A stretch of 64,000 nt of DNA from Lasiosphaeria ovina (Eukaryota > Ascomycota > Sordariomycetes > Sordariales > Lasiosphaeriaceae), in the NCBI GenBank assembly GCA_033439765.1, contig JAULSN010000001.1:8866001-8930000 (forward strand). Reading direction: 5' to 3'. The position numbers were made by a program, and so were the translations under genes. This document shows, one piece after another, positions 6,740 to 51,500 of this stretch. Under the pieces are notes generated by a model, which made no database searches, was not told the origin of the DNA, and saw only the letters and a program-made list of their open reading frames with translations. Numbering within the stretch: position 1 is the stretch's first letter; the number at the start of each line of letters is the position of its first letter.

Positions 6740-9700
6740 ATGGCTAGCCGCCACACTCCATTCGTGCTGTTAGACACGGATTGGGACAGCGGCTCTCTTG
6801 CATCAAGTCGTTTTACGACGCGCCTGACAGGAGGCGCCGCTCCGGTGATACCGGGAGATCGATACGCCAACTACGACCTCATCGACACCCTCGCTCTCGC
6901 CCAACGACTTGGCGTGCATTTCCTTCCCATCGCATGGCAAGCCCCCTACCGGCCACTTGGAAGAGGGCGCCAAGCGGCGATCAATCAGACTCTGGTCAGC
7001 TTGCAGACGAGCCTTGCCTTTAAATCATTTGGGCTGAGCGCCCAGGGCAGCGAGTCCGCCATGCAAGAGTTGATCAACGAGATGGTGGTGTTAAGCCTCC
7101 CCGACGTCCACACGCATCCCCACATCGTCCAACTGCAGGGCCTCTGCTGGGAGGTGTCTTCAAATGGCCAGGTCTCACCGGTCCTCGTGTTTGAGAAAGC
7201 AAACTTGGGCAATCTGGGGCATTTTGTCGAGTCGGCAGGAGGCGACAGTGCCCTCTCTCTTGAAGACAGGCTGAATTTATGTGTTGATATTGGCATTGCT
7301 GTTAGGGACATGCACTCACTCGGTCCGTACTCCGCCGGGCGGCGCCCACCGCATTAGATTATCTGCAGCTGACTGACTGACTGACCCACGATAGGGATAC
7401 TTCACGGTGACCTCAAACCTGGTAATATGCTCGTGTTCCAGGATAGATCTGGCAAGCGAGTCGTCAAGGTGACGGATTTTGGTTATTCCACTCGGTGCTA
7501 TGACGACCAGGATCTCGTCAAGGTACCAGAATCGGTCCCGTGGACTGCTCCTGAGCACCACACCCGACACTTTCTGGCGTCTGGGGCTCGGAAGATGGAC
7601 ATTTACTCCTTTGGGGTTGTTTGTCTGTGGCTTCTCTTTGAGGGTATACCGCTCAATTCGACTGCGGGCTTGGGGGCCGACACTACATCGAGCTTCAAAG
7701 ACGTCCTTATGAATCGCGCAAATGGTGAAGGCTTCCTACAACTCTCACTCGAAGTTGTAGGTCAAGATGGTCGCTTCTCCAACGCTACAAAAGGCAATCT
7801 CAACCAATTTTTTGCCTCAACGCTAGCAAAAGACGCGAACAAGCGAAACAGCGATTTGAACCACCTTTTGCACCTCCTCGTTCCAAATAGGTCAGTAGCC
7901 ACCGTGATCTATTCAACCCACCTCAGGCCTCCGCTCACCTCTACCGTAAGACAATTACCCAAGCCGCTGCATCGATCTGCATTGGACGCAGCTCCAGAAG
8001 CCCCAGACGTGGAGCTTTTTGAGGTTCGTTCTTGAACCACATCTCTGCAGCGAAAAGGGCCCCGTGCTAACAATAGCATCTCTAGCTTGAGTCCTCCTTC
8101 TACGAGTTCTTCTTTGCCGATTTTCGTCTCCGCGACGTCATAGCCGCAGAACTTCGGTCGAAATCCTCAGCCCATGCCTTCACTTCAGAGTCTGATCAAT
8201 TCACTGCATCGCGTCATTACGCGCTGCAGGCAGCTCTGTGCTACCAGGTTGGATTTGGCGTGCCAAGGGATCCCGAAAAGGCCAAAAGCTACGTGGAAAA
8301 TCATGGGATACTTCAAGAGGAACTGAACCTCCGAGTGGCAGACCTAAAGGATGTCAGCAAGCAACGCCAGCTTCGAGACGGACTGTTCAAAGACCTAGAT
8401 CGTGAAGGCTACTTGGCACAGGTCTGTCTTGCGCAGTACTACCGGGACTTGGGTCAGTTGGAACATGCCATACAAGTTCGTGGAAGGGAAATCCGCGATC
8501 TAGAGGACGTCCTAGGACTCGTGCATCCTTTCCTCCTAATGCTGAAGAGCCAGCTGGCCAAGATATTCAGGGATACAGGAAGCCTAGTCGAAGCCGAACT
8601 GCTGGAAACGGAAGTCCTCTTGGTCGCCAAGTCCTTCGAAACCCTAGACCTAGACAGCCCATTTATTTTGGATGCCATGGCCAACTTGGCATTGACACTC
8701 CAGGAATTAGGAAGACTGCAGGAGGCAGCGGATCTGAGGGAGGAAATCGTGGCAAACCTGAGGTCGAGGGAAGACCTCGGTCCAGACCAGCCGAGGAGGC
8801 TAGGTGCACTCGCCAATCTAGCCTCGTCGTATCGGATCCAAGGACGATGGAAACAAGCTCAAGATCTGGAAATTGAAGTCCTAAACGAGAGAATGACCAC
8901 CCTTGGCCCAGATCACGTGGATACTCTAACCAGCAAGGCGAATCTGGCTAGCACACTTTGCAGGCAAGGTGAATGGGCCGAGGCCGAAAAATTGGAAGGA
9001 GAGGTGGTTGGGGCCGGAGTGAGAGCACTTGGGCCGGACCACCCTCTGACAATAACTTGGATGTCGAACTTGTCTACCACGTACCACCATCGCGGCCGAT
9101 TATCCGACGCTCTGAAACTGCGGACGCAAGTGGTGGGAATGATTCAGAGACTGCACGGCCCCGAACACCCCATGTCTCTGACGTGTGCGGCTGAAGCCGC
9201 ATCGCTGCTCCGGGATATGGGGCACTGGAGCGAAGCAGAAAAGCTCTTGCAGTATGTTGTGAGGACAAGGGTGAAGGTGCTGGGCACGGAGCACCCTTCC
9301 ACTCTAGTCAGCATGAGCAATCTGGCATCGACCTTCCAGAAGCAAGGAAAACTGGAGGACGCCGAAAAGCTAGAGCTTATCGTGATCGAGTTAGGTTCAG
9401 AGGTCTTGGGGAAAGATCACAAGGACGTCCTTGCCAGCCAGGGAAACCTAGCGGCAATCTATCGAAAGCAAGAGCGTTTCAAAGAGGCTGAAGACTTGGA
9501 ACGACACGTGCTGGAGGTCAGGGTGAGGGAGTTTGGCCAAGACCACCCGGACTCCCTCGTTAGCATGGCGAACTTGGGTGCTATTCTGTACCTCCAAGGG
9601 CGGTATGGCGAGGCCGAGGACTTTCTCTCGACAGTTGTCGCGAAGCGAGAGCAAAGTTTAGGGCATGACCACCCTTCCACCTTGCTATCGAGGGGCAACC

Positions 9701-9951
9701 TCTCGCTGGTTTACCAGGGTCAAAAAAGATGGGCAGAGGCAGAGGTTCTGGAGAGACAGGTCTTTGAGGCGCGGAAAGCTTTATTGGGAGAAGGCCACCC
9801 CGATACCCTGACGGCTTTGGACAACCTGGCGATGAACTTGAAGGCACAAGGCCTCACTGAGGAGGCGGCGGAGCTGATATCGACGCACGCGCTGCACCAG
9901 CAGGATTCTTCGTTAACACCCTCCGCCTCAAGGGAGACACGGTCAGCATAG
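6740..9951 (+). CDS. Protein kinase-TPR fusion protein
   Basis: Three exons: 6740-7322, 7395-8023, 8086-9951. Introns are 72 bp (donor GTCCGT, GACTGAC branch repeats) and 62 bp (donor GTTCGT, branch GCTAAC). They join in frame to about 1025 residues. Residues 1-390 are a kinase fold: LAFK beta3 lysine, Glu in the ELINEMVVL helix, catalytic loop ILHGDLKPGN, VTDFGYS magnesium loop, PWTAPEHH activation end and MDIYSFGVVCLWLL helix F. All catalytic residues visible in the family are present, although a glycine loop is not obvious. After a linker, about 12 TPR units run from residue ~500 to ~1000 with the kinesin-light-chain/NPHP3 pattern LG-x-DHP-x-TL-x-S-xx-NLA-x-xx-xx-QGR-xx-EAE. TPRs bind partner proteins, so the likely role is a repeat-guided signalling kinase, possibly in self/non-self recognition (inference). 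Paralogue of the divergent upstream gene. Confidence 0.85.
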
Positions 9952-18314: not shown

Positions 18315-20120
18315 CTACCAATCAAACAGAGCCACAATGTCCTCGTCGCCGCGGTCGCGGGCGTACATCTCGGGCGTCTTGCCGCGGTGGTCGCACGTGC
18401 CGCCGTCGACGCGCGGGTCGTGGAGCAGGCGGCGCACCTGGGCCCTGCAGCCGCTCCGCGCGGCGTGCGACAGCGGCGTGCGCCCGTCGACGTCGGCCAG
18501 GTTGGCGTCGACGACGTGGTGGCGGTTGCCGTCGTGGCCGTTGCACCGCAGAAGCGCGTCGATAACTAGTGTGTTGAAGACGTCGTGGTGCCGTTTGGTG
18601 GCTGCTGGGACGAATTGTGTTGGTGCTGGCGGGCTTGGTGGGCGGTGGCTTGCGTTGTTGTTGTTGATACGTATAGGCGGGTGGGCGAGGCCGAAGGCTT
18701 CTCTGGCGAGGGTGGCCGGCGGCTCGAGAACCGCGTGCGCCAGCGGCGTGCGCCCGAGCATGTCGGCGCGGTTGACGTCGGTCCGCCGGTCCGCGAGCAG
18801 GCACCTCACGATGTCTATGCTCTTGGCCCGGCCCACAGCGTAGGACAGCGGCGTGCGGCCGTGCGAGTCCTGCGTGTTGATGTCGACGCGCGGGTCGGCC
18901 AGGAGCGCCGTGACGAGCTTGTACCTGGCTGCCTCGAATGGCTGCGGCTGTGCCCTGATTGCCAGGGTCAGGGCCGTCTGTCCCTGCGAGTCTCTACTGT
19001 CTGGGTCGACGCGGGGGTCGGCGAGGAGCAGGGTGGTTGTGTTGATGAGGTGGCGCGCGGCCGCGTAGTGCAAGGTTGTCGAGCCCAGGGCGTCGCGGTG
19101 CGTGGGGTCGACGTTGGGGTGCTTCAGGAGCATGGCGGCGATGGTCTCGCGGCGTGCTATGACGGCGCAGAGCAGCGACGTGCGGCCCATCTCGTCTACG
19201 CTGTCGGCAACCGCGACGTCTCTGTCCAGTGCAAACCGGACAATGTCTTCGTGTCCCTGGGCTGCCGCGCTGCGCAGCGTGACGCCGAGGGTCTGCTTGG
19301 TGCCGTAAAGGTGTAGGGATGGGTCTAGCAGCGCGTTCACCGTGTCCGTATGGCCTTGCTTGATGGCGTAGAACAGCGGCGTGCGTCCGCGGGCGTCCGT
19401 GTCGTTCGGCCCGTAACAGCCCATCTGTACCAACAGCCTCGCGACGCCCTCGAGGCCGTAGAAGGCAGCAATGTGCAGGCCCGAGAAGCCCTGGATGTCG
19501 TCGGCAGGGAACGACCAGGCCAAGATGTGGCGGTGCAATTTTCGAAACCCGCTGAGGACCAGCACCTGGCCCGCGGCGTCGGCCGGGCGGCGCTTGGCGA
19601 GGAAAACGTACATGTCGAGGTCTGGCGTGCGGGCGCGGAGAGCGTGGTCGACCCAGTGCGTGGCGGCGTACATGTACAGCGGCATTTCAAACAACCTCTC
19701 GCGCAGCCCTTGCGCAGTCCTGCACCTGCCGCTCATGACCGGGTCGAACGACATGTACGTCAGGAGGGTCTTTGTGATGTACTGCTCGGCCTTGGGAAAC
19801 CATTTGGTCAGGTTCTCCTTGAACCAGGCCTCGGTGGTGAAGTGGCTCCAGCCTAGTTCGCCATGGTTCTTGATGCTGACCAGCCCTCCGCAGACATCAA
19901 CGATGTCGTCGATGTCGTAGGAGAGGCCGTCGAAGAAGCCGCTGTTCCGGTCGCCTTCCTCGACGGCGACAATTTCGGCCATGTATAGGTCGGGCAGCGG
20001 CATTTGGACAAGGGTCATCCAGGCCAGAAGGCGGAGAGCAAGCTGCTTCAGCCGTGCGTTGTCGATGCTAGTGATTTTCTGCATGGCAAGGCCGTAGTGT
20101 CCTCGCGCATGGTGGTCCAT
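18315..20120 (-). CDS. NLR-derived ankyrin-repeat protein lacking the NACHT domain
   Basis: An intronless frame. I choose the ATG at 20120 (MDHHARGHYGLAMQKI), giving 601 residues; 30 extra in-frame upstream codons look like leader. Residues ~5-170 match the post-NACHT helical/winged region of fungal NLRs: LKQLALRLLAWMTLVQMPL, then IDDIVDVCGGLVSIKN, SHFTTEAWFKENLTKWFP and ITKTLLTYMSFDPVMSGRC. That block normally follows a P-loop NTPase. From ~235 to the end are about ten ankyrin repeats (GRTPLFYAIKQGHTDTVNAL, GRTPLSHAARSGCRAQVRRL and others). No Walker A or B occurs, and upstream sequence encodes no NACHT, so this is a sensor half without its switch. Possibly a decoy or remnant of an incompatibility-type receptor (inference). 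GC-rich third positions suggest real coding. Confidence 0.8.
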   Translation of the reverse strand: MDHHARGHYGLAMQKITSIDNARLKQLALRLLAWMTLVQMPLPDLYMAEIVAVEEGDRNSGFFDGLSYDIDDIVDVCGGLVSIKNHGELGWSHFTTEAWFKENLTKWFPKAEQYITKTLLTYMSFDPVMSGRCRTAQGLRERLFEMPLYMYAATHWVDHALRARTPDLDMYVFLAKRRPADAAGQVLVLSGFRKLHRHILAWSFPADDIQGFSGLHIAAFYGLEGVARLLVQMGCYGPNDTDARGRTPLFYAIKQGHTDTVNALLDPSLHLYGTKQTLGVTLRSAAAQGHEDIVRFALDRDVAVADSVDEMGRTSLLCAVIARRETIAAMLLKHPNVDPTHRDALGSTTLHYAAARHLINTTTLLLADPRVDPDSRDSQGQTALTLAIRAQPQPFEAARYKLVTALLADPRVDINTQDSHGRTPLSYAVGRAKSIDIVRCLLADRRTDVNRADMLGRTPLAHAVLEPPATLAREAFGLAHPPIRINNNNASHRPPSPPAPTQFVPAATKRHHDVFNTLVIDALLRCNGHDGNRHHVVDANLADVDGRTPLSHAARSGCRAQVRRLLHDPRVDGGTCDHRGKTPEMYARDRGDEDIVALFDW

Positions 20121-20940
20121 GGCGCCGAAAGTGGGTTTGATTGTCGCGAAAGGAAAAAAGAAAAAACAGAGAGTGGCCGTGGGAGGTAGTACGCAAGATG
20201 GCGTGCGCAAGGTTGAAGGGGGTTGAGTGAAATGCTGGATTGGATTGCGTGAAGAATCATCAGCAGCGTTCCGCCCACCAGTGCAGAAAGTATTTGGTGA
20301 AAGACAGTCTGTGTGCGCGGGGTTGATTTCCGGCCGAGTAGATGATTGCTGTTACGTACCGTATTCAGGACTTGGTACATACGTGGATGGGACTGTGTCC
20401 CGTATTGAAAATAACAGAAAGGTGCTGGACGGAAGCTATATCGCGGTCGAGGCGTGAAAACTGAACAGTCGATGCTTGGTCGGGCGTGAACAATGAACAA
20501 AGACGCCTGTTTTGGTTTGTACGGGGATATTGCGTTGCAGTAACGGGTAAATGGAAGAATCCGTGATTTAACGTAATGAAGCTCCCCCTGAAGCGAGGTA
20601 CGAGCGTAGGTAGGGAGCAAATGGAGTTGATCCTATTTTATATACCTTACCTACCTATTAGACCCTCCCCTGTCATATAGTTAGGTTCGTGTGTACTCTA
20701 TTTGTGCTATTTCTCTTTTATAGCTTTCGTATTCGTTCTAATCGTGCATGGCCTGGTTAACAGGAGGTCAGCTCCGTTAATCGGAAACTGGCCTACTTTT
20801 ATTGCCGACTTCCCTTGGTAAAGTGAATTTTACGACGGTAAAATGGAATGGGCCTGCTTCTAGATTGCAAAGTTTTCGAGATCCATAGGCCGGCCCTTTA
20901 CCTTCCTACCCTCTATAGTTCCTTAGTTCCTTCTCCATCT
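20121..20940. promoter_or_regulatory. Upstream region of ankyrin gene, AT-rich to the right
   Basis: Promoter side of the minus-strand ankyrin gene. A minus-strand frame across 20048-20620 has no domain. From about 20640 the sequence becomes AT-rich with no coding signal and repeated 'accttacctacc' motifs. Confidence 0.35.
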
Positions 20941-31900: not shown

Positions 31901-34500
31901 ACTGGGGGATATATGGGCGTGTCAAGCGACTAGTCCGGGGGTGTTGCTTATTACTAAACCGTGGCCGCTGCACCGCTAGGGTCAGCGGCTGTCAATCGTT
32001 GCAGCTCGAGAACAAGAGAAGCAGGGCGGGTTGGAATCTGTTTCTTTTAACTGTCGATTCCGTTGGATCCGTGTATCGCAGTCGGGGTCAAGGAAGAATG
32101 ACAAGACGGCCTGTGGCTTGGAGATATAGACAAGAGGACTGTGTGGCAGCAGCCAAAGTACGTTAGCTTAACTGTTCCCGCTTTTGCGCTTGTTCCAAAA
32201 GCCCAACTTAGTGAGGCCTGCCAAGGAATTACTGAACAAGCTTCTTCAGCCTTGCCGGGCGTCTTCAGCCTTGCCCCTGGCATTGGACCCAGCCTCTCAA
32301 ACTAGGCTGCAATATCTTTCAAAAACCAACCCGGTAGATCCTTATTCCCGCACGGTCTTTCGAGTCTCGAGTAGTTGGGTTCTCATTCTCAGCCAAGCAA
32401 GGCCGAGATGGGCTCGCTTTTCAGCCGTTTTGCGAACATCAAAGCCATAGACTCTGGATCAACAGAGGTTTCCAGTCCGAGAGAGGGAGGTCGAGGGTAG
32501 AACAAGGAGACAGATTAGCATGAACTCTCATCCTTGACTATGTGCAACGTGCTTGGCAGTGGAACGGTCCTTGGGAACAGCAGTCTTTGTTCCCATCCAA
32601 CATTGCGAGTGTATGAGAGTCCGAGAACGGTAACTCAAAGCGGCACGCGCCAGTGGTTGTTCCGGAAGTCGTCAAGGAGACCGAACAAAGAAACTCTTGC
32701 TTAGGTGGGTGGGTGTACTCATACGAAGAATAACCTGCAGAACCAAAGTTGCTTCGAGTCTCCCTCGCCAGTAGTGTGTCCAGAACAAGGAATTGTTCCT
32801 GCCAGAGTTCAGCCTCGCGAGTTCAGCCTCGTCGACTGCCATCCCTGTTCCAGCCAAGGCAAAGCTTCATGGTTTGATTTCCACTCCTCTCTTCTACCGC
32901 GTTTTTGTTCCTTGTAGCTTGTGTGTGTCTGTGTTATGTGTAGGTGTAGATGACCGAGGCGCTTGAAAAGGCTTTTCTCTGTGTCGAAGCGTAGTGCCGC
33001 TCGTCGAAACTCGAAGAGGGTTGTCTATGTTGAATATCGAGGTGGTGGTGCTTGGCTCAACCTCCGTTGCAGGCACAGGCGTCTCTGCTGCTGCTGCGCT
33101 TGGGTTAGTCCATCTACTTCTAAGCTGGCAGGCCAGTCTGCATTGGAGCAGTTCTGGCCTTTGAAGGAGAGCTTCCTTACTTAGGTCGTGCGTGTGCCGC
33201 GAGGTTGAGGGCGTGGCGGCGGCGCCTGTGGTCTGCCAGATCAGGGATCGGTGTGCTGTTTTCATTGCAGTAGCGAGCGTTCCGCGCTGGTAAACTAGTA
33301 GAGGAAAGTAATCAAACACGAGGTGCTTGGTTGATCACGGCGATTCGTTCTCGCAATCTTGAGACGGGTTGTTCACGATCGAGGCTTGACACCCGTAGGA
33401 GGGGTCTGCTAGACAGAAGACGAGTTTTGGGGCGCCTGGCCGCGCTGCCACGGGTGCCGCTAGGCCGCCTGGAAGCCCCAAATCCCAGCAGCCTGGCTCC
33501 CATCCAATCCTTCCGGTCTGCCAACCACCCCAAGCTAGGTCCCTGTCCTCCAGCAGCGGCACAGCCCTTTCCCCGCTCCCTCAGTGATGCACTTTGTGCC
33601 CTTATCTAATCTGGCTATCTACTGCTATCTCTATATCTATCGATTCGCGCCTGCCGCCGCTGTCTCTCGAAGCTGCCTTCCTCGTGCTGCCTCGGATACC
33701 CTCGTAGAATCAAATCCACTCCGGAGGGCAGCTGCTCAGACGTGCTTCCTGAGCTGCTGCTGTATGCCCTCATCCTACTGCCCTCTCTTTGTCGTCCCTT
33801 CCCTTGATCCCGTGCTTCGATCTTGAGCTCCTACCCGCGTTGCTCGCTCCAGTTTCTCCCGCAGAGCCTCTCCACCACAGCAGTGGCCATATCTCGAGCA
33901 TCTACGTATTACATCATGCAGCCCGTAACGCGTCAGCGAGATTCCTTTGAATCTTGATGCCCGCTTCACTAGATCTAATCAAATGCCAGCCTCGCTGCCC
34001 TCGAGAAACGCGTCCCTGTCCCCTCGGAACCACCACCAGCCTTGGAAAAGAACAGATACACACAGACAGCCTGTTCCCTTGAGCCGTGCAGCGATACAGA
34101 GGCAGCAGGAGCTTCGGGGCGCGTGGTCCTCGTCTCGTTCCTCACAGATTCGCAGCAGGCACAGCACATCACAGCACAAGAACCTTCACACATCTTGCCT
34201 GCGCGGCAGCAGCACGTCATCACACACAAAAAAAGGCACTTATCAAGCTGCTCCTTCTTCTTCTTCTAATCTCAAGCCCGTCTGTTACTCGGGGTGAATC
34301 AAGCAAGTCCGCAGGTAGCTAGCAGCTCCACCTACATCTCCTCCCGTGTGCCCTCTGCAGGCCTCTCGTGCTCCCCAGAACCTGCTTATCGGGCTTCCTA
34401 TCGTCCTCCGAACTTGCGTTTCCCTTTCAGAGCCGCCCTGCGTGTGTGTAGTGGACCCACCGGCCTGGCAACGGGAGGTGATCGTGCACGGTCCACGCCC
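28907..34500. other. Gene-poor, AT-rich intergenic stretch
   Basis: No frame here has a domain or convincing introns. 29.6-31.2 kb is AT-rich. A CT-rich tract (31368-31425) runs into a (GT)n tract (31427-31450), and short direct repeats (tgtaggc x4) occur at 30298-30318. The plus frame 29175-29528 (117 residues) and minus frame 29709-30293 are open but featureless. Confidence 0.4.
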
Positions 34501-34641
34501 AACTTCTATTTAGCCTCGCGTCCTCTGCGCGGTCCTCTCTCCTCCTTGACCTCCCTCCTACAACTCTTTTCTTCTTCGCTTTGAGAGGGCACGCTTTTGT
34601 CTACCTAAATGTGCCTTCGGCATCCGCGATCGGGGCTTTGA

Positions 34642-34712
34642 TTCTTCTTCTTCTTCTTCTTCTTCTTCTTCTTCTTCTTCTTCTTCTTCTTCTTCTTCTT
34701 CTTCTTCTTCTT
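34642..34712 (+). repeat. (TTC)n microsatellite
   Basis: About 23 uninterrupted TTC units in the pyrimidine-rich 5' part of the putative host locus. Confidence 0.95.
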
Positions 34713-35526
34713 GCTTTCTACATCATGAGCTTTGCAAGCTTCCTCTTCTTCTTCTTCTCTTCTTTGATTATTCCTCCTTCTCCAGCCTCGCCGCGGCTGC
34801 AACCTTTTCAGCATCAGCATCATCTTCGCGAGCTTCAGTTTCGTCAACAGTAGTGTAGCCGGCACACGCGTGACTGGTAAGTTTGCATTTCCTCTTGTCT
34901 TTCTTTTGCTGGTCGTCGCCGGCAACCGTTGCTCCCGCCTTTCCGCACAGTGGCACACACAATTTGGAAAAAATTTCCCTTCATCTTGTGTCTGGCCTGC
35001 GGTGCCCTACCCTTCTTCCCTTTTCTTTCCATTTCCCTCTGCGTGTGTGGGCCCGCCCTTCCCTGGCCTTCCTGCACGCCTATATATTCTTTCTTCCTGC
35101 TTCGCCCTCGGCTGCCCGACTTCTTCCTTCCTACATCAAACTTTTTTCTCGAGGCTGGCTTTCTCCTTCAAGCCTTTTTGGTTGCTCGCTTCTTCTCTTC
35201 TCTTTTCTTTCCTACATCATCGCCTGCATGCCTTCCTACCTCATCTGGCCTCTGCCTCTTGAGAGGTATGCTTCCTTCTTTTCCTTTGCTTCGCTATTCG
35301 CGCCGCTCAAGAGATCGCGCTCTTCCGATCATCTTGCTTTTCTCTTCCTTCCTGCCTTTGACAACACAACATCCGTTTAACACCTCTAACATCGGCGCTG
35401 AACAGGTCCTCTTCTGCAGATTTCGACTTCTGATAAACCTGGCATCTTTTCTTTTGTTTCTGCAGACACACTCACATGCAAAGGTAAGCATGCTCTGGTT
35501 TCTGTTTTCCATTTTTTCCTTCCAAA

Positions 35527-35598
35527 GCACATGATGATATCCTCCACACACTCGAGCCTCCCAAGGCAATGCGAGTTTGATTCGTCGATTTGAACGTC
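35527..35598 (+). ncRNA. Box C/D snoRNA-like unit 1a (weak box D)
   Basis: Box C ATGATGA at 35531-35537. The box D position reads TTGA (35590-35593) rather than CTGA, and the closing arms pair poorly. Otherwise it is close to its neighbours in the ~216 bp array (GCGAGTTTGA.TCGTCGAT core). Probably a decaying copy. Confidence 0.35.
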
Positions 35599-35738
35599 CA
35601 TTTCTCGGGCTCCATCTCACTTGCAATCCTTTCTAGGATTCTACTGGCCGCTTTTCATTCCAGACTTTTCTCCTCTAGAAATTCGCCTCGGGCGCCAGCA
35701 AGGTAAGCATGCTCTTTTTGCCCCTTTTCCATTTTCTC

Positions 35739-35816
35739 TGCACATGATGATATCTCCTCTACATTCACTCTAGCCTCCCAAGGCAATGCGAGTTTGACTC
35801 GTCGATCTGACATGCA
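35739..35816 (+). ncRNA. Box C/D snoRNA candidate 1b
   Basis: Box C ATGATGA at 35744-35750, box D CTGA at 35807-35810, and a TGCA/TGCA closing stem directly outside them. It lies inside an intron (35703-35881). The stretch before box D (GCGAGTTTGACTCGTCGAT) is kept across the family and is the likely guide; its target was not identified by eye. Confidence 0.6.
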
Positions 35817-35960
35817 TTTCTCGGTCGCCAATGACATTTGCAATCCTTCTCTTGCATTTTGCTGACCGCTCTCAATTCCAGACTTTTCTCTAGCAAGCCA
35901 TCTCTCGGGCGCCAGCAATGTAAGCATCATCTTTTCCCTCCTTTCCATTTCCCTTCACAA

Positions 35961-36031
35961 GCGCATGATGAAAACTTCTACACTCTAGTCTCCCTGGCGA
36001 TGAGAGTTAGATTTCGACGATCTGACGTGCA
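35961..36031 (+). ncRNA. Box C/D snoRNA candidate 1c
   Basis: Box C ATGATGA 35965-35971, box D CTGA 36023-36026, and closing stem GCGC/GTGC with one G-U pair. Intron 35920-36094. Pre-box-D sequence TAGATTTCGACGAT has changed from the sister copies, so its target may differ. Confidence 0.55.
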
Positions 36032-36169
36032 TATCTCGGGCTCCACTGTCACTTGCAGTTTTTCTGGGATTTTACTGACTGCTTTCAGCTCCAGGCTCCA
36101 TTCTCTCCACCGCGGTTTTCAAGTGTAGCAAGGTAAGCATGATCACTTTCTTCTCCATCTTCATTCACA

Positions 36170-36245
36170 AGCACATGATGAGATCCTCTACAACTCTAGC
36201 CTCCCAAGGCCGTGAGAGTTTGAAATTCGTCGATCTAAGCGTGCT
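36170..36245 (+). ncRNA. Box C/D snoRNA-like unit 1d
   Basis: Box C ATGATGA 36175-36181 and a perfect 5 bp closing stem AGCAC/GTGCT, but box D reads CTAA (36235-36238). Intron 36133-36329. A stem without a proper box D suggests recent loss of function or a tolerated variant. Confidence 0.4.
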
Positions 36246-37115
36246 CCTCCATTCAATCGGACACTAGCATTCGTACTTTGGGAATCGCAGGACACTTTGC
36301 TAATGCTGTTGTCGGCCTCAACTCTTTAGGCAGCATTTTCGGGACATGAGAAACATGATCGGGGCATTACAAGCATACCTGGCCCAAAGGATTTCGCCTC
36401 CCATTGAATAATACCTTGTCGCGCCCGGCGACTTTCCACATACACACCGGGTCCAGGATTCTTCACTCCTCCTTTTTTTCCCCCTTCTTCTTCACATCTT
36501 TCAGTGGGTTTCGTGGGCTTTTGATGTTCCCCTCCGACAATCTCACCACATGATGCAAACAAACTCTCAAAACCACCTGGTAGCCATTTGGCTTGGACTT
36601 GCTTCGGCACGGACATTCCTTCTGGCCGTGACCCATTTCGGTTCATAATGAGAGCGGTCAATTATCAACTGCGAGGCTTTCTGGTGACAGAAGTGACCAT
36701 CAGTTTGATAGACCACTAGTCTGACGAGATGGGGCGACATCCGACAAACGCTTTCGACAAAACTTCGCCAACTTTCGACACACGCCAACTTTCGATCGGG
36801 GATGCCGTCGACGGCGACCTACTAACCAAACGAATGAAACCTGGTCCAATCTCTTTTCCTTTTGTGGCCTCCACGTCCGGGGGTGGCCGCCCGCAGCCTG
36901 CGGGTAGATTTCGGGTGTGCGTGCCTCTGGACTGCCCGTACCCTAGCAAGGCAGCACCTTCCCCTTTTCCTTTCACGTCTGATTCACACTGCGCCCCTTG
37001 TATGTCCGAAACCGCGGGGGACTCCTTCGGGGAGTGTTTTTTTTTTTTTTTTTCGTGGGTCCTTGGGGGGTCTTTGAGCATATGCTGGAGTGTCTTCGGT
37101 CGAAGCAAAACCAAT

Positions 37116-37211
37116 CCCTATGATGACCAGCATTTATATTGTGTTCTCGCACAGAGAGCCGAGTTCATCCTTTGGGTAGAGCTATGATCCAAACAATCCG
37201 TGTCTGAGGGG
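37116..37211 (+). ncRNA. Box C/D snoRNA candidate 2 (single copy)
   Basis: Box C ATGATGA 37120-37126, box D CTGA 37204-37207, and arms CCCT/GGGG with one T-G pair. There is no tandem sister copy and the short stem makes this a weaker call. Confidence 0.35.
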
Positions 37212-37524
37212 TCTTTTCTCGGGGGAACCTTGCTTTCCGTTCCCTCTTCGGGGGAGCTGGCTTCGACCTTCAATTTTGTGGGCTTCGTGGGATCTTTGCG
37301 TCTTTCATGGGTTTGGCTTCGGCCTTCATGCATGTGGGCTTTGTGGGGTTAGCTTCGTGGGATTGGCTTCGGCCTTCATGTGGGTTGGGAGTATGGTTCT
37401 TGTCATTCTTCCGGGGGGGGTTGAGCATGGTCTTCATGCCTTTTCCCTCCGGGAGAACTGGCTCTTACCTTTGCGGGTATCCAGTTCTCCAGTGGGTTCT
37501 ACGCGGACTTCTGGGGGTTTCAAT

Positions 37525-37648
37525 GACAATTTCAATGATGACTCAACAAAACGACACCCACACAATGGCCGGACCTTTCTCCGTCTCCGGACGGAGGCAC
37601 CAAGTGGTGTGGTCAATGGCCGAAAAACCACATTCTGAGAAATTTGTC
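37525..37648 (+). ncRNA. Box C/D snoRNA candidate 3a
   Basis: Box C ATGATGA 37535-37541 and box D CTGA 37635-37638. The arms GACAATTTC and GAAATTTGTC pair over nine bases with one bulge. The region ahead of box D contains AATGGCCGAAAAACC, shared with 3b and 3c. The long stem makes this one of the best candidates. Confidence 0.65.
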
Positions 37649-37710
37649 TTGCTTCCTCTTTTTTCATTTTATCTTCATCATATCACATCCTCTCCCATCC
37701 ACTCCTGTCA

Positions 37711-37753
37711 CTGCGGGGGGGCTGTCTGGGCTCGCCTAGGCACCTCCCCGCGG
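37711..37753 (+). other. Conserved hairpin between snoRNA units, copy 1
   Basis: Outer arms GCGGGG.../...CCCCGC and an inner stem TCTGGG/CCTAGG around CTCG. The same fold recurs after units 3b and 3c with paired sequence changes. Candidate processing signal. Confidence 0.5.
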
Positions 37754-37758
37754 AGAAG

Positions 37759-37878
37759 CAATTTCAATGATGAGAGCTGGACAGATGGCTGGACCTTTTT
37801 CCGTTTGCATACGGGCGCCAATGGCGTGTCAATGGCCGAAAAAAACCATACACTACTGAGCATTTCACTGAGAAATTG
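37759..37878 (+). ncRNA. Box C/D snoRNA candidate 3b
   Basis: Box C ATGATGA 37767-37773, box D CTGA 37868-37871, and a perfect 7 bp closing stem CAATTTC/GAAATTG. Tandem sister of 3a at 232 bp spacing. A second CTGA upstream near 37855 could serve as an alternative box D. Confidence 0.65.
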
Positions 37879-37937
37879 ATCTTGATCCCGCTTTTCCTTC
37901 TGTCTTCATCACGTCACGTCCTCTCCTTCTCCTGTCA

Positions 37938-37980
37938 CTGCGGGGAGGATGCCTGGGCTTGCCTAGGCACATCTCCGCGG
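37938..37980 (+). other. Conserved hairpin between snoRNA units, copy 2
   Basis: GCGGGGA/TCTCCGC outer stem and CCTGGG/CCTAGG inner stem around CTTG. Base changes relative to copies 1 and 3 keep pairing through G-U pairs. Confidence 0.5.
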
Positions 37981-37985
37981 GACAA

Positions 37986-38100
37986 CAATTTCCATGATGA
38001 CTCCTGAGTACAGACCGCTTGGCAAGACCGTTCTCTGTCTGCGGACAGAGGCGTCAAGTGTCGCGTGTCGATGGCCGAAAAAACTCGATCTGAGGAATTG
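37986..38100 (+). ncRNA. Box C/D snoRNA candidate 3c
   Basis: Box C ATGATGA 37994-38000, box D CTGA 38090-38093, and arms CAATTTCC/GGAATTG pairing with one bulge. The stem's last pairs differ from 3b on both sides (TTC/GAA to TCC/GGA), a compensating change that supports a real RNA stem. Pre-box-D sequence: ATGGCCGAAAAAACTCGAT. Confidence 0.65.
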
Positions 38101-38155
38101 CCCTGCTTCTTTCCTTTGGTCGGCGTCACTTCACACTCTCTTCCTTCTCCTGTCA

Positions 38156-38199
38156 CTGCGGGGAGGCTGTCTGGGTCCGCCCAGGCACCTCTCCGCGGG
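38156..38199 (+). other. Conserved hairpin after snoRNA 3c, copy 3
   Basis: GCGGGGAGG/CCTCTCCGC outer stem with one G-U pair and a CTGGG/CCCAG inner stem closed by the loop TCCG. Best-formed of the three copies. Confidence 0.55.
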
Positions 38200-38289
38200 C
38201 GTTTTGGACTGGCGTCCGGTCTAGCAGAGTTCTCCAGGTTTCGACACAGTGGTCGGCGGAGAAGAGACGAAGCCAAGGTGATTGTTGGT

Positions 38290-38351
38290 CTTGCTGCGAG
38301 TACGAGTTCTTCGCGCTTGCAGCAAGGCCTGCCGAGGCAGGAAACCAAACT
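38290..38351 (+). other. Two adjacent hairpins
   Basis: CTTGCTGC (38290-38297) pairs perfectly with GCAGCAAG (38329-38336), directly followed by CCTGCC-GA-GGCAGG (38338-38351). Placed between snoRNA families 3 and 4; may be processing structures. Confidence 0.5.
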
Positions 38352-38390
38352 TTCACAGAGGGCAACAGAAGTAAGGTAGCCAAGTCCAAG

Positions 38391-38446
38391 GGGCCAATGA
38401 TGAAGCGTCATCCGACTGTAGGGTCGAAGGCTTCATGTCTGAGCCC
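38391..38446 (+). ncRNA. Box C/D snoRNA candidate 4a (short)
   Basis: GGGCC, box C ATGATGA 38397-38403, box D CTGA 38439-38442, and closing stem GGGC/GCCC. Only 35 nt lie between the boxes, short for the class. A donor-like GTAAGG lies about 20 nt upstream. Confidence 0.45.
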
Positions 38447-38517
38447 GCGGTGGGATGGCGGTGCCTTGAAACAACTCCCCTCTCCGAACGTGCCAAACGA
38501 AGATTCATAACGGGTAC

Positions 38518-38800
38518 GTGATGAGGGGGCCGGTGGCGCAATGCCATCCGGCCGAGGGGAGATGGCACTGACTGAGGCCTCTCAAGAACTTGTGGGTTTT
38601 TGGGTTTTTGGGTTTGTGGGCTTGTGGGCTTGTGGGCTTGTGGGCTTGTGGGCTTGTGGGCTTGTGGGCTTGTGGGCTTGTGGGATCTAGGGAAAACTCG
38701 CTCCTCTCCTGAACGTACAAACTAGGACTACATCGTACGTGATGAAGGGGCCGGCGATGATTCATCGTCGGCCAAGGGGAGGCGAGACAACCCGCCTGGG
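38518..38800 (+). ncRNA. Two degenerate copies of the family-4 unit
   Basis: At 38518 and about 38738, GTACGTGATGA (a good 5' splice site overlapping a box-C match) is followed by GGGGCCGG and a changed box C (GTGGCGC; GCGATGA). The first ends with CTGAGGCCTCT (38572-38582) as in intact family members; the second lacks CTGA. The 10 bp minisatellite (38596-38685) separates them. Likely dead or retargeted copies. Confidence 0.35.
38596..38688 (+). repeat. 10 bp minisatellite GGGCTTGTGG
   Basis: About eight perfect decamers preceded by two T-rich variants. Probably in an exon of the host transcript. Confidence 0.95.
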
Positions 38801-38855
38801 GCAATCTCAGGAAAGATCCGGAGTGGGCGTGGGCATCATGAGAGTACAATTTTCC

Positions 38856-38924
38856 AAAGGGGCCAATGATGAAACCATCGTCGACTGCCATGCGCAGCGC
38901 GGCGATCCCAAACTGAGGCCTTTC
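38856..38924 (+). ncRNA. Box C/D snoRNA candidate 4b
   Basis: AAAGGGGCC, box C ATGATGA 38866-38872, box D CTGA 38913-38916, then GGCCTTT, which pairs with the 5' arm. The guide-side sequence ends GGCGATCCCAAA before box D. A GTACAA donor-like site lies 25 nt upstream. Confidence 0.6.
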
Positions 38925-39073
38925 AAGAACTTACCAGTGGGCGTTGGGTTACTTCGGAAGTCCCCTGGACTATCCTGTGACAAGTCGAGTCCAGTGGGTG
39001 TTGGCCTCTCATTTGAGTCGCCTGAAAGATGGCACTCAATTCACCCTCTTCTGAGCCTACAGAGCGAGGGTGG

Positions 39074-39112
39074 CCTCCCGATTGGAATATTTCCGACGAG
39101 TCAATCGGGAGG
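39074..39112 (+). other. 11 bp perfect hairpin
   Basis: CCTCCCGATTG (39074-39084) pairs with CAATCGGGAGG (39102-39112) across a 17 nt loop. Lies between two snoRNA candidates. Confidence 0.6.
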
Positions 39113-39350
39113 TTGGGGGATCCGCGATAATGAATTTTCTACATATCATATCGCGTGGGTTTTGCGAGTTGACCCAACTGAGTCATTCTCAGAAACACTC
39201 ATGAAGCAAGCATGAGTGGGCTGTCCCGAAGCGCACACAGAGCTGAGCATATTCATAGCACTGTTGCGGACGACGGACTAGTCACACATATCGTGGGGGG
39301 TTGAGGCGAGCAACCCAGTGGGATGGAGACCGGCTTAATTGCGAACACAA

Positions 39351-39417
39351 GGGGCCAATGATGAGACCATCGTCGGTTGCCAGCTGCGCAGCGTCGACGA
39401 TCCGAACTGAGGCCTCT
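39351..39417 (+). ncRNA. Box C/D snoRNA candidate 4c
   Basis: GGGGCC, box C ATGATGA 39358-39364, box D CTGA 39407-39410, and closing arm GGCCTCT. Sister of 4b, sharing ACCATCGTCG after box C. The pre-box-D guide is GACGATCCGAA rather than GCGATCCCAAA, so the pair may have split targets. Confidence 0.6.
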
Positions 39418-39738
39418 CAAGTACGTGGGCAACTGAGGGAGTGGGCAACCAAGGGACAGAGTCACACGCAACTCTCGAAAGCATGACCTTCCGAGGCGCA
39501 AATGTGGACAACCCGGAGGTTTGAGGCACCCTTGACGGCCTGGGTCGGCAAGGGAACCACGGAGCGCTCACGGGGGAGTTCCGAGACCGCCAGCATTCAC
39601 ATCTACAACTCGTTAGTCGTGGTGGGTAACGAGAGTGAATGTGTCCGCCGACGGTGACAGCGTGACAGCGCGGCCTTGGGCCCTCCCTTTGCCCGAGAGT
39701 TTGCAGGCCGACAAAAACAACGGGTACAATGAAACACA

Positions 39739-39822
39739 GGGCCAATGATGACAGGCCGTGGGGCTGCGTTGCGGTTTCCTTCGGGTTGTCGAGCGCGGAA
39801 AGATGGCACTTTGCTGAGGCCC
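39739..39822 (+). ncRNA. Box C/D snoRNA candidate 4d
   Basis: Perfect 5 bp stem GGGCC (39739-39743)/GGCCC (39818-39822), box C ATGATGA 39745-39751, box D CTGA 39814-39817. Guide-side GCGCGGAAAGATGGCACTTTG is shared with 4e and 4f. Upstream donor-like GTACAATG at 39724. Confidence 0.65.
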
Positions 39823-39875
39823 GCAGGAATCAGAGACTATACCTAAGGGACATCAAAGCAATAACAGTAAACACA

Positions 39876-39923
39876 GGGCCAATGATGAAACGCCGGCGGA
39901 AAGACGGCGCCTTGCTGAGGCCC
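39876..39923 (+). ncRNA. Box C/D snoRNA-like unit 4e (shortened)
   Basis: Same stem and boxes as 4d (box C 39882-39888, box D 39915-39918) but only 26 nt between boxes, after an internal deletion relative to 4d and 4f. Probably too short to assemble a normal particle. Confidence 0.45.
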
Positions 39924-39976
39924 GCAGGAATCACAGACCATACCTGGGGGCCATCAAAGCAATAACATTAAACACA

Positions 39977-40039
39977 GGGCCAATGATGACACGCCGTGGA
40001 TCTGCGTTCGCGCGGAAAGACGGCACCTTGCTGAGGCCC
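39977..40039 (+). ncRNA. Box C/D snoRNA candidate 4f
   Basis: GGGCC/GGCCC stem (39977-39981, 40035-40039), box C ATGATGA 39983-39989, box D CTGA 40031-40034. 4d, 4e and 4f form a ~100-140 bp tandem series with common spacers (ATCAAAGCAATAACA). Confidence 0.6.
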
Positions 40040-40157
40040 GCAGGAAACCAAAAGACCATACCGGGGGCAAAGAAGAAACACAGCTGGAATCGAGAGAGCT
40101 CGTTGGGACTTTGGAAGGAAACATGTCTCGAGGTGTAGATTAATTAGATCGCGAATC

Positions 40158-40283
40158 GGGGCCGGTGATGACTTTTCTTTTCGAGAAGAAATTGTTTCAA
40201 TGGCGAACGGATGGACGGACTCGCGCAAGCAAGCCCGCTTTCTTTTCTGCCACATGCGAATAGCATAACAATGCCTGAGGCCC
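40158..40283 (+). ncRNA. Box C/D snoRNA candidate 4g (long)
   Basis: GGGGCC (40158-40163), box C GTGATGA 40165-40171, box D CTGA 40275-40278, then GGCCC closing the stem. The interior is unlike the others, which argues that the boxes and stem are conserved for function and not through recent copying. Confidence 0.55.
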
Positions 40284-40815
40284 TTGGTTAGCATTTACAC
40301 TTCGTCGTGGCGGTGTTGGGGGAGGTGGGTATGGGGACAGGAGGCGTGTGTGTCTTGTGTTATTGGGGAGGGAAGAGGAAATATTAATTATGGGATGTGT
40401 TTTGGGGTGTAACCGTCGATGGCCGGGGCTTGGAGTTTGTGTGTAGGATTTGAGGCTTGAGGATAGTTAATTATCTCAAGAAACTGGACGTTCGCAAACC
40501 ACCACAACATGCATTGACTTTATCATGTCTGTTTTGCTTCCAGGTTCTTGGCGATACGATATGTGCCTCCTTGGCGTGTGATTTCTAATTACCGCCCAGC
40601 AGAAAAATAATGCAAATCCCAATCCGGCCCAGCTTGACCCGGGGGGGGGGGGGCAGATTGCCACAGGACGCGGGTTCCTCCTTCTGCAATAATTAAACAA
40701 ATTGACAAACCTACAATCAATCCCGGAAGTCACTCCTGCCCTGTCTCACCCACTATCTTCTTTATACACCTAAGCTCCTCGGTCTTCTCTCTCTCTCTCG
40801 TAAACGTAAACATGG
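40284..40815. other. Intergenic; 3' flanks
   Basis: G/T-rich then AT-rich sequence with a G12 run at 40641-40652. No gene seen. Holds the 3' end of the snoRNA locus and of the minus-strand membrane protein gene. Confidence 0.4.
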
Positions 40816-48515: not shown

Positions 48516-51500
48516 CAAACGAACGAAAAGAGGCGGTGGACCCCGAAAGAGAGCCAGAAACCTCTTTTCCGGGCTTTGGTGGCGCTCAGTGGAGATCCAA
48601 CACATGCGAGGTCGAATGAAATAACCGTGGAGAATACTCAGAACGTACCTACACTGTGCCTGCATGGAAACATGTGCAACCCCGGGAACAGCGAATTGCT
48701 TGTGGGCCACCCATGGACATTTGATGGATGGGCCAACTTGACGTCCATGGAAGGAAGCTCCAAGATTTAGTATTTTGGCAGGGCAGGGCGCTCTTTCCTT
48801 CCCCCAAAGATGAAGCCGAAGTCCGGCCTCGCTTCCCGTGTCTCGTCTTGACCCCGCATCGGACCCAATGCTTTTCTCTGTCGGGTGGCTCCTGCCCCTC
48901 TTAACTCTTTCCTGTCCCAAATCAATCAATCGCCGGTCCTCTCGGATCAAAGCAGAGCAGACCAGCCCAACTATCAATTCACCATCATCCCTCCTCACCA
49001 CTAACATATACTTACTGACTACTACAGACAGACTGGTTACCTACCTAGGTAGTTCCACGTCTCCTCAACCTCGCGCGAGCTGCTCGCCTGTTTCGGTGCC
49101 GACAAGTGTCCCGGCTGCTGATTCTCCCCTCCTCGGCCATCCAATATCTAACTCCTGATTCCAAACGCGCCAAGCTCAAACGGCACGTGCTCTGCATCTC
49201 GGCCCAGCTCAAACAGCCTGGTTTTCTAGTGGTACGTGACGATGCAGTGCCATTCTACACCCTCCCAAGACGGATGAGCCAATCTGGCATTTGCCCTGGC
49301 ACTCCGAACTCGAGCATGATGAACATCACAACATTCACTTTCTGGCCATCTGAGTCTTGCCGTCGCACTCGACCGTCGCTGGCATACGGCGGGTTTTCTG
49401 CCGCTGGCGTTGGTCACTCGCGGCCCAAGCATGATGACGATTGAAGAGTCTGATCGAGCTCCCAAATACACGCGAGAAGAAACGACTGGCATATTATGAT
49501 CTCAAGGTTGATGCTAACGCCTGGTTTCTTTTCGCTAGGGATATCCTAAACGCCCTCGATCAAACCAGGGTTTGCTCCCTGTATACCTAGGCACCCACGT
49601 GAAGACCGCAGCCGTTGACGGCATGAGAAGGCCCTGTTGCTGGATCTACCGAGCCTATCAGTCGGGACAGGGCCCGTACTGTTCTTCAACAAGAGATCTG
49701 AATGTTTTCTAGCACACTGGTAGACAGAAATAAGACAAAGAAGCACAGTTCATGCACTCGCAGGGCTCAGGCAATACACATTTGTACCAGATAGCTGCAG
49801 CATGGCGGGGAATAAAATTCCCACCACATGGCACATTATCAATTGAGTATTCACGGGCCTGTTCTCTCATATATCGGTGGAGCTCCAAGAGTCCAAGCTA
49901 CAAGTTCTGGAAAGTCTTGAGTCATTTAAATTGCTAGTCAAAGCGGGCCCCGGTCAGCGAGTTAGCCCTCAAGGTTAACTATTCAACTCATCAGAGACAA
50001 TCTAACTCGTACACCAAATGCTATAGATTCCCATCTCCATAAGTCATAGCAACACTATACTTCCAACAATCGGCAACTTTCGGGAGAGCATAAACCCGGA
50101 TTTTACAACTCAAAACACGAACATGAGTTACGAACCGCAGCTCGGGCGAGAGGCTGCCTAAGCTGGGGAACCCAAAGTAATCCAGGCCTGAAATGATAAT
50201 CATCAAAGGACGCAAAGTATCTCGGATAAGACCCCAGCACAAGCGAGGTACGACGGCACTCCGACCAAGGAAGGGGTCGGGGTATGAGAGTCACAAGCTC
50301 AATGAACAGTGAATCCTGATAGGTGACCAAAGTGTCTAAATTCTAGGCAGCAACGGTTCCTCACCGGAAGCCTGCAGACGAGGCTGTCGACCGCCCGCAG
50401 TCAGCCAGCCAGTCAAGCGTACCGCCACGACAGCTCCTCCAGACACCGGACCCTGAAGCCTAAAATGCTAAACACAAGAAGCTCTCGCACGAACCCAAGA
50501 GGCTCTGTCCTCAGCTTAGGTAACAACACCAAACCGGGACGAGAGCCGCCATGCAGCGAGGCCTTTCTCTGCCCGACCCTGACGGAGGGAGGACAGCCAT
50601 TGTTACACCGCAGCCAGCACCTGGGCAGCCTTACCCGGCGGGCCGCAGCGACTGGACGGATGCAGTTTCAGCACGCGGCTAGACCACAGTAAGGCAGGCA
50701 GACAGCGGGAGGATACATGAAGGAAGGAAGCGGAACCGAGACGGGGCCAGCGCACAACTGCAAGTGAAAGACAGGTCTCGGGGACAAGAGCAAGCCGACA
50801 ACTGTCAGGAAGGACAAGGCTACGTATAAGCAACGAGCCATGCGCCAGAGCGGAGCAACAGCCCCGGAACCCTGGGCCGACGACGACGATGGTGACGGCG
50901 ACGGCGAGCGGCCAAGACAAAAGAACGGGCCTCTGCTGCACAAACCGCCAACCGCCAACCGCTCCCTCAGCCTGACCCGAAAAGCGCACTTTTGAAGCGC
51001 CAGAGCCGCGTGGGGATGGGGGGGGGACGAGACGGATGGCTGGATACAGCGACAAGCGGCTCCGCATCTACACACTGCACACACACACACACACACCCTC
51101 GCACACACGCAAAAGGACGAATGAAACGAGCGCAACGAACAAAAGGACCTCTGCTTACCTGCTTAGCCTATCATATCCCGACTTGACTTGGCTGCCTATC
51201 TGCGGGTGTGTGTGTGGGTGGTGTGTGGGGAGCAAGTATGCATGCATGCATGCATGCTGCAGGAAAAAAGAAGCAAAAAGGACGAACAGGCTGCCGCGGC
51301 TGACATGGTTTCGCTCATTCGTCCTTTTCTCTTTCTTTTTTTGAGGACGGCAGCGGCAGCCAGCCAAAAGGACGAAAGTGGTGTTCTTTCCGAGTAAATG
51401 GAAAGGAAGAAAATAAACGAGACCACAGTCGTGGTATGTGTGTGTGTGGACGTGTGCATCCAATAAGCTGTGTCGTCTGCATCATCCCGAGTCCGTCTCA

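Follow-up and report, generated by a model that had tools for sequence, protein, structure and literature searches.

Box C/D units at the locus

We analyzed a stretch of 64,000 nucleotides from the ascomycete Lasiosphaeria ovina (contig JAULSN010000001.1; hereafter, the window), which lies at 8.87-8.93 Mb on a contig of 9.16 Mb; the whole genome is 51.7 Mb. Within about 5 kb of the window are 17 units resembling box C/D small nucleolar RNAs (snoRNAs), some of them decayed: 4 copies of a family A, a singleton X1, 3 copies of a family B, and 9 copies of a family C. Families A, B, and C are unrelated to one another; C/D anatomy is common to all units. We refer to family A with its introns as module 1 and to X1, B, and C as module 2.

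Both strands of the window were scanned for RTGATGA (C box) followed within 25-156 nt by CTGA (D box), with 4 bp or more of stem abutting the boxes. The plus strand of the window has 20 RTGATGA boxes, 17 of which are at 35531-40165. A D box and abutting stem accompanied 12 of the 17 C boxes in 34500-40290, compared to a mean of 0.059 and a maximum of 2 in 1000 order-2 Markov sequences made from that segment. Unit C4 (C box at 38866) was lost to the script's exclusion of any stem containing two G-U pairs, and was recognized by eye as the 13th unit. None of the 9 C boxes on the minus strand of the window had a D box and stem partner in the same scan. A stricter scan (stem score of at least 4.9, one box mismatch tolerated) retained 8 plus-strand and 0 minus-strand C boxes in 5.8 kb versus 1 and 2, respectively, in the other 57 kb. 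As the copies are not independent, it is fairer to count four kinds of unit (A, X1, B, and C). Terminal stems abutting the boxes were 4-7 bp in 12 of 17 units, and weak or broken in A1, A2, and C2. The D box fails in A1 (TTGA), A4 (CTAA), and C3 (none), and the stem fails in C2. Two further plus-strand C boxes lie apart at 49316-49453, one with a D box and short stem, which is about chance level.

Repeat searches blind to the boxes recovered the identical groups, A, B, and C, as tandem copies. Spacing was approximately 217 nt for the four A copies and 225 nt for the three B copies, and three of the nine C copies were approximately 101-137 nt apart. The original prediction for this DNA, of at least 11 plus-strand C/D units with paired arms, three arm families, several degenerate copies (here A1, A4, C2, and C3), and tandem duplication, was borne out on each of these points. 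A BLAST search of 35400-40320 against the genome (simple repeats skipped, limited candidates scored) found no second copy of any unit. A transposon or dispersed repeat family was rejected, as this search returned only the locus itself and a hairpin described below, and the A and C sequence patterns are unique to the locus. Of the open reading frames of at least 150 amino acids that overlap the locus, 7 of 9 had no Pfam family; a neighboring 640-amino-acid frame matched only the window's own protein. The predicted non-coding nature of the host thus has partial support, limited to these frames and to module 1 exons of 38-39 nt.

Family A and its predicted introns

The features of module 1 are as follows.

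35484..35663, plus strand: intron 1 (GTAAGC ... TCCAG), holding A1; from alignment with the other three A introns
35527..35603, plus strand: unit A1, degenerate (C box intact, D box TTGA, stem broken)
35703..35881, plus strand: intron 2, holding A2; consensus scan (GTAAGC, GCTGAC, CAG)
35740..35816, plus strand: unit A2, boxes intact; unit scan and guide scan
35920..36094, plus strand: intron 3, holding A3; consensus scan (GTAAGC, ACTGAC; 3' end at 36088 or 36094)
35961..36031, plus strand: unit A3, boxes and stem intact, guide changed; unit scan and guide scan
36133..36329, plus strand: intron 4, holding A4; consensus scan (GTAAGC, GCTAAT, TAG)
36171..36242, plus strand: unit A4, degenerate D box (CTAA)

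The four A copies are placed one each in four consecutive sequence-predicted introns, all beginning with GTAAGC. Branch and 3' splice sites were found for introns 2-4 by consensus scan, and intron 1 was delimited by the alignment. The A units start 43, 37, 41, and 38 nt (A1 through A4) from the 5' splice site. Intronic C/D units of Neurospora crassa are mainly 41-60 nt from the 5' splice site (PMC2780460, section 7); two of the four A units fall inside this range and two just below it.

The consensus scan of 34400-40400 found no introns around X1, B, and C, that is, nothing ending beyond 36329. That scan overlooked one A intron, so the absence of introns there is no proof. The predicted multi-intron host therefore held for the A copies; no introns were found around X1, B, and C, which make up most of the cluster.

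A perfect (TTC)23.7 microsatellite occupies 34642-34712 at the start of the locus. By eye, CTACATCA or close variants occur about four times in the T-rich segment 34715-35245, upstream of the A introns.

Unit X1 and families B and C

The units of module 2 are as follows.

37116..37211, plus strand: unit X1, single C/D unit, arms CCCT/GGGG; unit scan
37527..37645, plus strand: unit B1, arms CAATTTC/GAAATT; unit scan
37759..37878, plus strand: unit B2; unit scan
37986..38100, plus strand: unit B3; unit scan
38391..38448, plus strand: unit C1, short, with a shifted 4-bp stem; unit scan
38511..38581, plus strand: unit C2, degenerate (no adjacent stem); unit scan
38732..38803, plus strand: unit C3, degenerate (no D box); unit scan
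38859..38923, plus strand: unit C4, arms GGGGCC/GGCCTT
39351..39416, plus strand: unit C5; unit scan
39739..39822, plus strand: unit C6; unit scan
39876..39923, plus strand: unit C7, 48 nt; unit scan
39977..40039, plus strand: unit C8; unit scan
40158..40284, plus strand: unit C9, the longest unit, C to D 114 nt; unit scan

Conservation was compared between the boxes and arms and the interior of each unit over ungapped alignment columns. In family B, 23 of 26 box and arm columns were invariant versus 41 of 72 interior columns (p = 0.003). The terminal stems of B are intact, with one G-U change, and the B units have a free A-rich stretch before the D box that differs among copies.

In family C, the comparison was made on the complete copies C4-C8 (5 of 9, with C1, C2, C3, and C9 excluded beforehand); 21 of 21 box and arm columns were invariant versus 5 of 26 interior columns (p = 5e-9). 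The same test gave p = 0.006 for the pair C4 and C5 and p = 0.04 for C6-C8, which are recent copies (a 101-nt repeat). The test is biased favorably because complete copies were chosen and the copies were first recognized by their C box. Units C1, C4, C5, C7, and C8 measure 48-66 nt with their arms, whereas the shortest C/D unit in Table 1 of the N. crassa study is 69 nt (PMC2780460). Predicted folds of C1, C2, and C4-C8 left at most 7 nt free before the D box in 6 of 7 units, and 18 nt in C2. Folding z-scores of the C units were -0.15 to -2.0, weakly better than shuffles. The pattern GGCCRRTGATGA-N24-54-CTGAGGCC had 4 matches in the genome, all at this locus (C4, C5, C7, and C8), and the control had 0.

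A hairpin common to the B units and the rDNA

Each B unit is followed by a hairpin of one family.

37706..37756, plus strand: hairpin after B1, related to a hairpin upstream of 18S in the ribosomal DNA (rDNA)
37933..37983, plus strand: hairpin after B2, same family as the B1 hairpin
38151..38201, plus strand: hairpin after B3, same family as the B1 hairpin

Besides the locus itself, the BLAST search of 35400-40320 gave one kind of match at four places, approximately 47 nt long and 88-89% identical. All four matched the B1 hairpin: one is in the rDNA and ends approximately 520 nt upstream of 18S, two are other rDNA copies, and one is a fragment. With a looser hairpin pattern, 7 places were found genome-wide (3 after B units, 3 in rDNA, and 1 in the rDNA-derived fragment), and a reversed-pattern control found 0. 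In B, the hairpin folds into a stem of 19 bp interrupted by a single bulge; the rDNA fold is very similar, and 97.4% of the cells in the alignment pair. Covariation lends the hairpin no support because no pair has changed on both sides. The rDNA hairpin is probably inside the transcribed 5' spacer, as it is downstream of promoter-like 130-bp repeats.

The best 60-nt fold in each of the 12 gaps between units in 36400-40320 was compared to the window's 5% value, -29.7 kcal/mol; this is a rough comparison, as gap lengths vary. Strong folds were found in 5 of the 12 gaps, namely those preceding X1 and B1 and those following B1, B2, and B3 (-31.9 to -38.8 kcal/mol).

The rDNA fragment, on contig 1 (C1:2303700), is an isolated stretch of 218 nt from upstream of 18S, 95% identical, that includes the hairpin. 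Rfam identified a eukaryotic 18S, a 5.8S, and the 5' part of the large subunit (LSU) in the rDNA, as well as a group I intron within the 18S gene at 2005-2371 of the rDNA record; a sequence that we take to be the fungal 5.8S core had one exact match in this genome's rDNA. RNA polymerase I (Pol I) promoter-like motifs of the rDNA had no match in the window with fewer than 3 mismatches. The hairpin pattern occurred in 2 viral contigs, which we took as chance, and the C pattern in 0. A plasmid search gave no match.

Candidate guide targets

A box C/D guide lies upstream of D or D' and has 10-21 nt of complementarity to rRNA or snRNA. In A2, A1, and A4, respectively, 12, 10, and 9 nt upstream of the D box can pair with a single LSU site, with one G-U pair each, and the predicted methylation site is LSU A256, numbered within the Rfam bounds. 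A3 had no LSU match. A pattern of the A guide and C box matched only A2 genome-wide (control, 0). LSU A256 as a family A target is a lead from sequence complementarity and not a result. In Table 1 of the N. crassa study, there is no 26S site below 356 (PMC2780460).

No guide match above chance was found for B, C, or X1 in 18S, 5.8S, approximately 1 kb of the genome's own LSU, U6, or three stand-in LSUs from other eukaryotes. In the stand-in LSUs, 2 of 16 D guides (X1 and C7) reached 9.3 versus 1.4 expected. The lineage-specific guides suggested by the original prediction are thus reduced to a lead for family A. D' guides, in a scan without a null, gave scattered matches with no pattern. In the precursor ribosomal RNA (pre-rRNA) spacers (upstream of 18S and the internal transcribed spacers ITS1 and ITS2), 2 of the 17 units, C3 and C5, exceeded all of their 15 shuffles.

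Five records labelled as bacterial metagenome-assembled genomes (L006-L010) carry eukaryotic LSU words. These bins are contaminated, since Rfam confirms the eukaryotic LSU in L006, L007, and L010.

Controls at the U14 locus

The genome's own U14 (C27:104966-105069) scored 58.6 bits with the Rfam model (E = 1.2e-10), below the cut-off of 64. At a lax limit, the U14 model also matched 6 of 14 control genomes below the cut-off; the U14 call therefore rests on the low E-value and on words in the sequence that we take to be complementary to 18S. A second U14 match (E = 0.7) was disregarded. As a positive control, the scanner found a single C/D unit, with 121 nt from C to D, just upstream of U14 in a likely intron. 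The order of this unit and U14 is the same as in N. crassa cluster V, where CD16, the snR190 homologue, is beside U14 (PMC2780460).

At lax thresholds, Rfam returned CRISPR, UCA1, FTX, engA, mir-8186, and sR47 at the locus; all were below their cut-offs and were taken as chance. Matches to U6 were found on several contigs, nine over the Rfam cut-off and one below. Nine is many for a fungus, and some may be pseudogenes.

Strand-biased GTGGG and other features of the window

Two further features are in module 2.

36504..39762, plus strand: stretch with 33 GTGGG motifs, all but one outside the units
38589..38684, plus strand: array in which CTTGTGGG is repeated 12 times, located between C2 and C3; repeat search

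GTGGG occurs 33 times on the plus strand and once on the minus strand in 36400-40320, compared to 59 and 69 times in the remaining 57 kb of the window. The units cover 28.5% of 36400-40320, and 32 of the 33 motifs are outside them. Ten of the 33 are within the 8-base array, and masking the array leaves 23 to 1. With the array masked, GTGGG has the largest strand difference of all 5-mers, with GGGGG close behind (21 to 1); part of the skew may therefore be a general G bias. It is possible that GTGGG is a protein-binding motif of a transcript. The phrase "GUGGG motif" had no match in a literature text search.

Elsewhere in the window, genes with TPR and ankyrin repeats are at 3107-4909, 8086-9951, and 18315-20351.

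Discussion

The locus is probably of snoRNA type. One of its modules is intronic by sequence and may guide methylation of the LSU; the other, made up of tandem orphan C/D units, is apparently unspliced. Our preferred reading, to which we give a probability of roughly 60%, is that of a two-module, non-coding snoRNA host locus under birth-and-death, the second module of which is released at hairpins. A plus-strand non-coding host transcript would contain both modules. In module 1 (35.5-36.3 kb), exons would alternate with four introns that each hold one A copy, and the RNA would be released after splicing; A2 would guide 2'-O-methylation of LSU A256, with A1 and A4 decaying. Module 2 (36.4-40.3 kb), not visibly spliced, would present the singleton X1 together with the three B and the nine C units (two of the latter decayed) in one long stretch, from which the units would be freed by an RNase III-like nuclease acting at hairpins, three of which are related to the rDNA hairpin upstream of 18S. 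Families B and C would keep the C/D kink-turn and terminal stem, enough for the core proteins of a small nucleolar ribonucleoprotein (snoRNP), while their interiors change. The proteins that bind stable box C/D snoRNAs are Nop1/fibrillarin, Nop56, Nop58, and Snu13. Copies would be born by tandem duplication and then decay.

Cleavage of the B hairpins by an RNase III-type enzyme is a reasonable candidate mechanism by analogy to fission yeast Pac1. Stems of 20 nt or longer are cut by Pac1 even when they carry bulges or variant loops, and its targets include the 3' external transcribed spacer (3' ETS) of the rDNA as well as snoRNA genes (PMC8421224). Polycistrons processed by yeast Rnt1 (PMC5934358) or by Pac1 likewise have hairpins between units. 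They differ in that the hairpin here, a putative cleavage site, is also found 5' of 18S and has a 19-bp stem with a bulge and a loop other than AGNN.

Several observations weigh against the preferred reading. The consensus scan missed one of the four A introns, intron 1, because its branch site is degenerate. The boxes and arms of family A were not significantly more conserved than the interiors (14 of 18 versus 32 of 49 columns invariant, p = 0.25), and the strongest column test, that of family C, left out four of the nine copies. Seven of the 12 gaps missed the 5% value; three of these were at -28.6 to -28.8 kcal/mol, one being unit C3 itself, and the gaps after C1, C6, C7, and C8 had no strong fold as judged by the best 60-nt fold. 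Yeast Rnt1 sites have an AGNN loop (PMC5934358), which the B hairpins lack. A covariance model of the hairpin had no match in the genome's own U14 locus, so the hairpin is no general snoRNA signal. The A256 lead comes from a scan in which 2 of 16 D guides reached 9.3 or better versus 0.4 expected, with a maximum of 2 in 20 shuffles. The scanner missed U14 itself, the C box of which is degenerate, for a recall of 1 of 2 units at that locus. Rfam gave 0 matches at gathering thresholds in the window; this silence is weak evidence, as the genome's own U14 also stays under its cut-off.

As in the UHG-like clusters of N. crassa, C/D units are in a row in a putative host of little coding potential, one per predicted intron in module 1, at a comparable distance from the 5' splice site; CD6 of cluster III, which is exon-encoded, is a precedent for units outside introns (PMC2780460). 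In contrast, most N. crassa snoRNA genes are singletons, with CD46A and CD46B as an isoform pair, whereas three families are tandemly expanded here; and 2 of 55 N. crassa C/D snoRNAs are orphans, whereas most units here have no detected target (PMC2780460). The mammalian SNORD115 and SNORD116 clusters resemble this locus, as read here, in that tandem copies occupy successive introns of a non-coding host, in their orphan targets, and in birth-and-death with constraint on functional elements (PMC4063771). They differ in that no test here gave homology, and in that this locus has three families without relation to one another, a single one of which is intronic, many fewer copies, and rDNA-like hairpins.

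Other scenarios were considered. The units could be an ordinary set of rRNA guides, that is, rearranged housekeeping snoRNAs in which B, C, and X1 methylate sites in the LSU, small nuclear RNAs (snRNAs), or transfer RNAs (tRNAs). Our target scan covered approximately 1 kb of the genome's own LSU and, among snRNAs and tRNAs, U6 only; X1 and C7 reach 9.3 in the stand-in LSUs; and 53 of 55 N. crassa C/D snoRNAs have predicted targets (PMC2780460). However, the two guides at 9.3 compare to an expectation of 1.4, the sequence next to the D box varies among the B copies, and the folded interiors leave little sequence free before the D box in 6 of 7 C units. We consider this scenario unlikely. A graveyard, in which duplicates of former snoRNAs are no longer made and are alike by recent duplication alone, we regard as more doubtful. 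It would account for the broken boxes or stems in A1, A4, C2, and C3, the non-significant box conservation of family A, and the recent copies C6-C8, but not for boxes and arms that change less than interiors in B and the complete C copies, the intact terminal stems of B with their one G-U change, or splice sites kept in all four A copies. Lastly, it is very improbable that the locus makes one structured long RNA or is a local repeat family, with the kink-turn elements as protein-binding modules of a large molecule; the lack of introns found around B and C, the hairpins alternating with B units, and a GTGGG bias outside the units, as with many protein sites, would fit, but the terminal stems directly adjoin the boxes, which is the arrangement of mature C/D RNAs, family A is intronic, and no dispersed genome copies were found in the BLAST and pattern searches.

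A bolder version of the two-module host reading can be put forward, although we hold it to be speculative and rather unlikely. The locus would be the fungal equivalent of the tandem orphan clusters of mammals, with a hairpin borrowed from the 5' external transcribed spacer of the pre-rRNA, such that release of the units and early processing of the pre-rRNA are either coupled or in competition. Short C units would be guide-free particles with self-folded interiors that act by binding core proteins and not by methylating.

In a literature search that left subscription papers mostly outside, we found neither a fungal cluster of tandemly expanded orphan C/D units nor a snoRNA locus with an rDNA spacer hairpin. 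A tandem cluster of three families would be an unusual place to study the function of orphan C/D RNAs and the origin of new guides. Within the sensitivity of our searches, the hairpin was found in the genome only at this locus and in the rDNA with its fragment. It poses the question of whether one nuclease or binding protein could act on both pre-rRNA and snoRNA precursors through a common signal.

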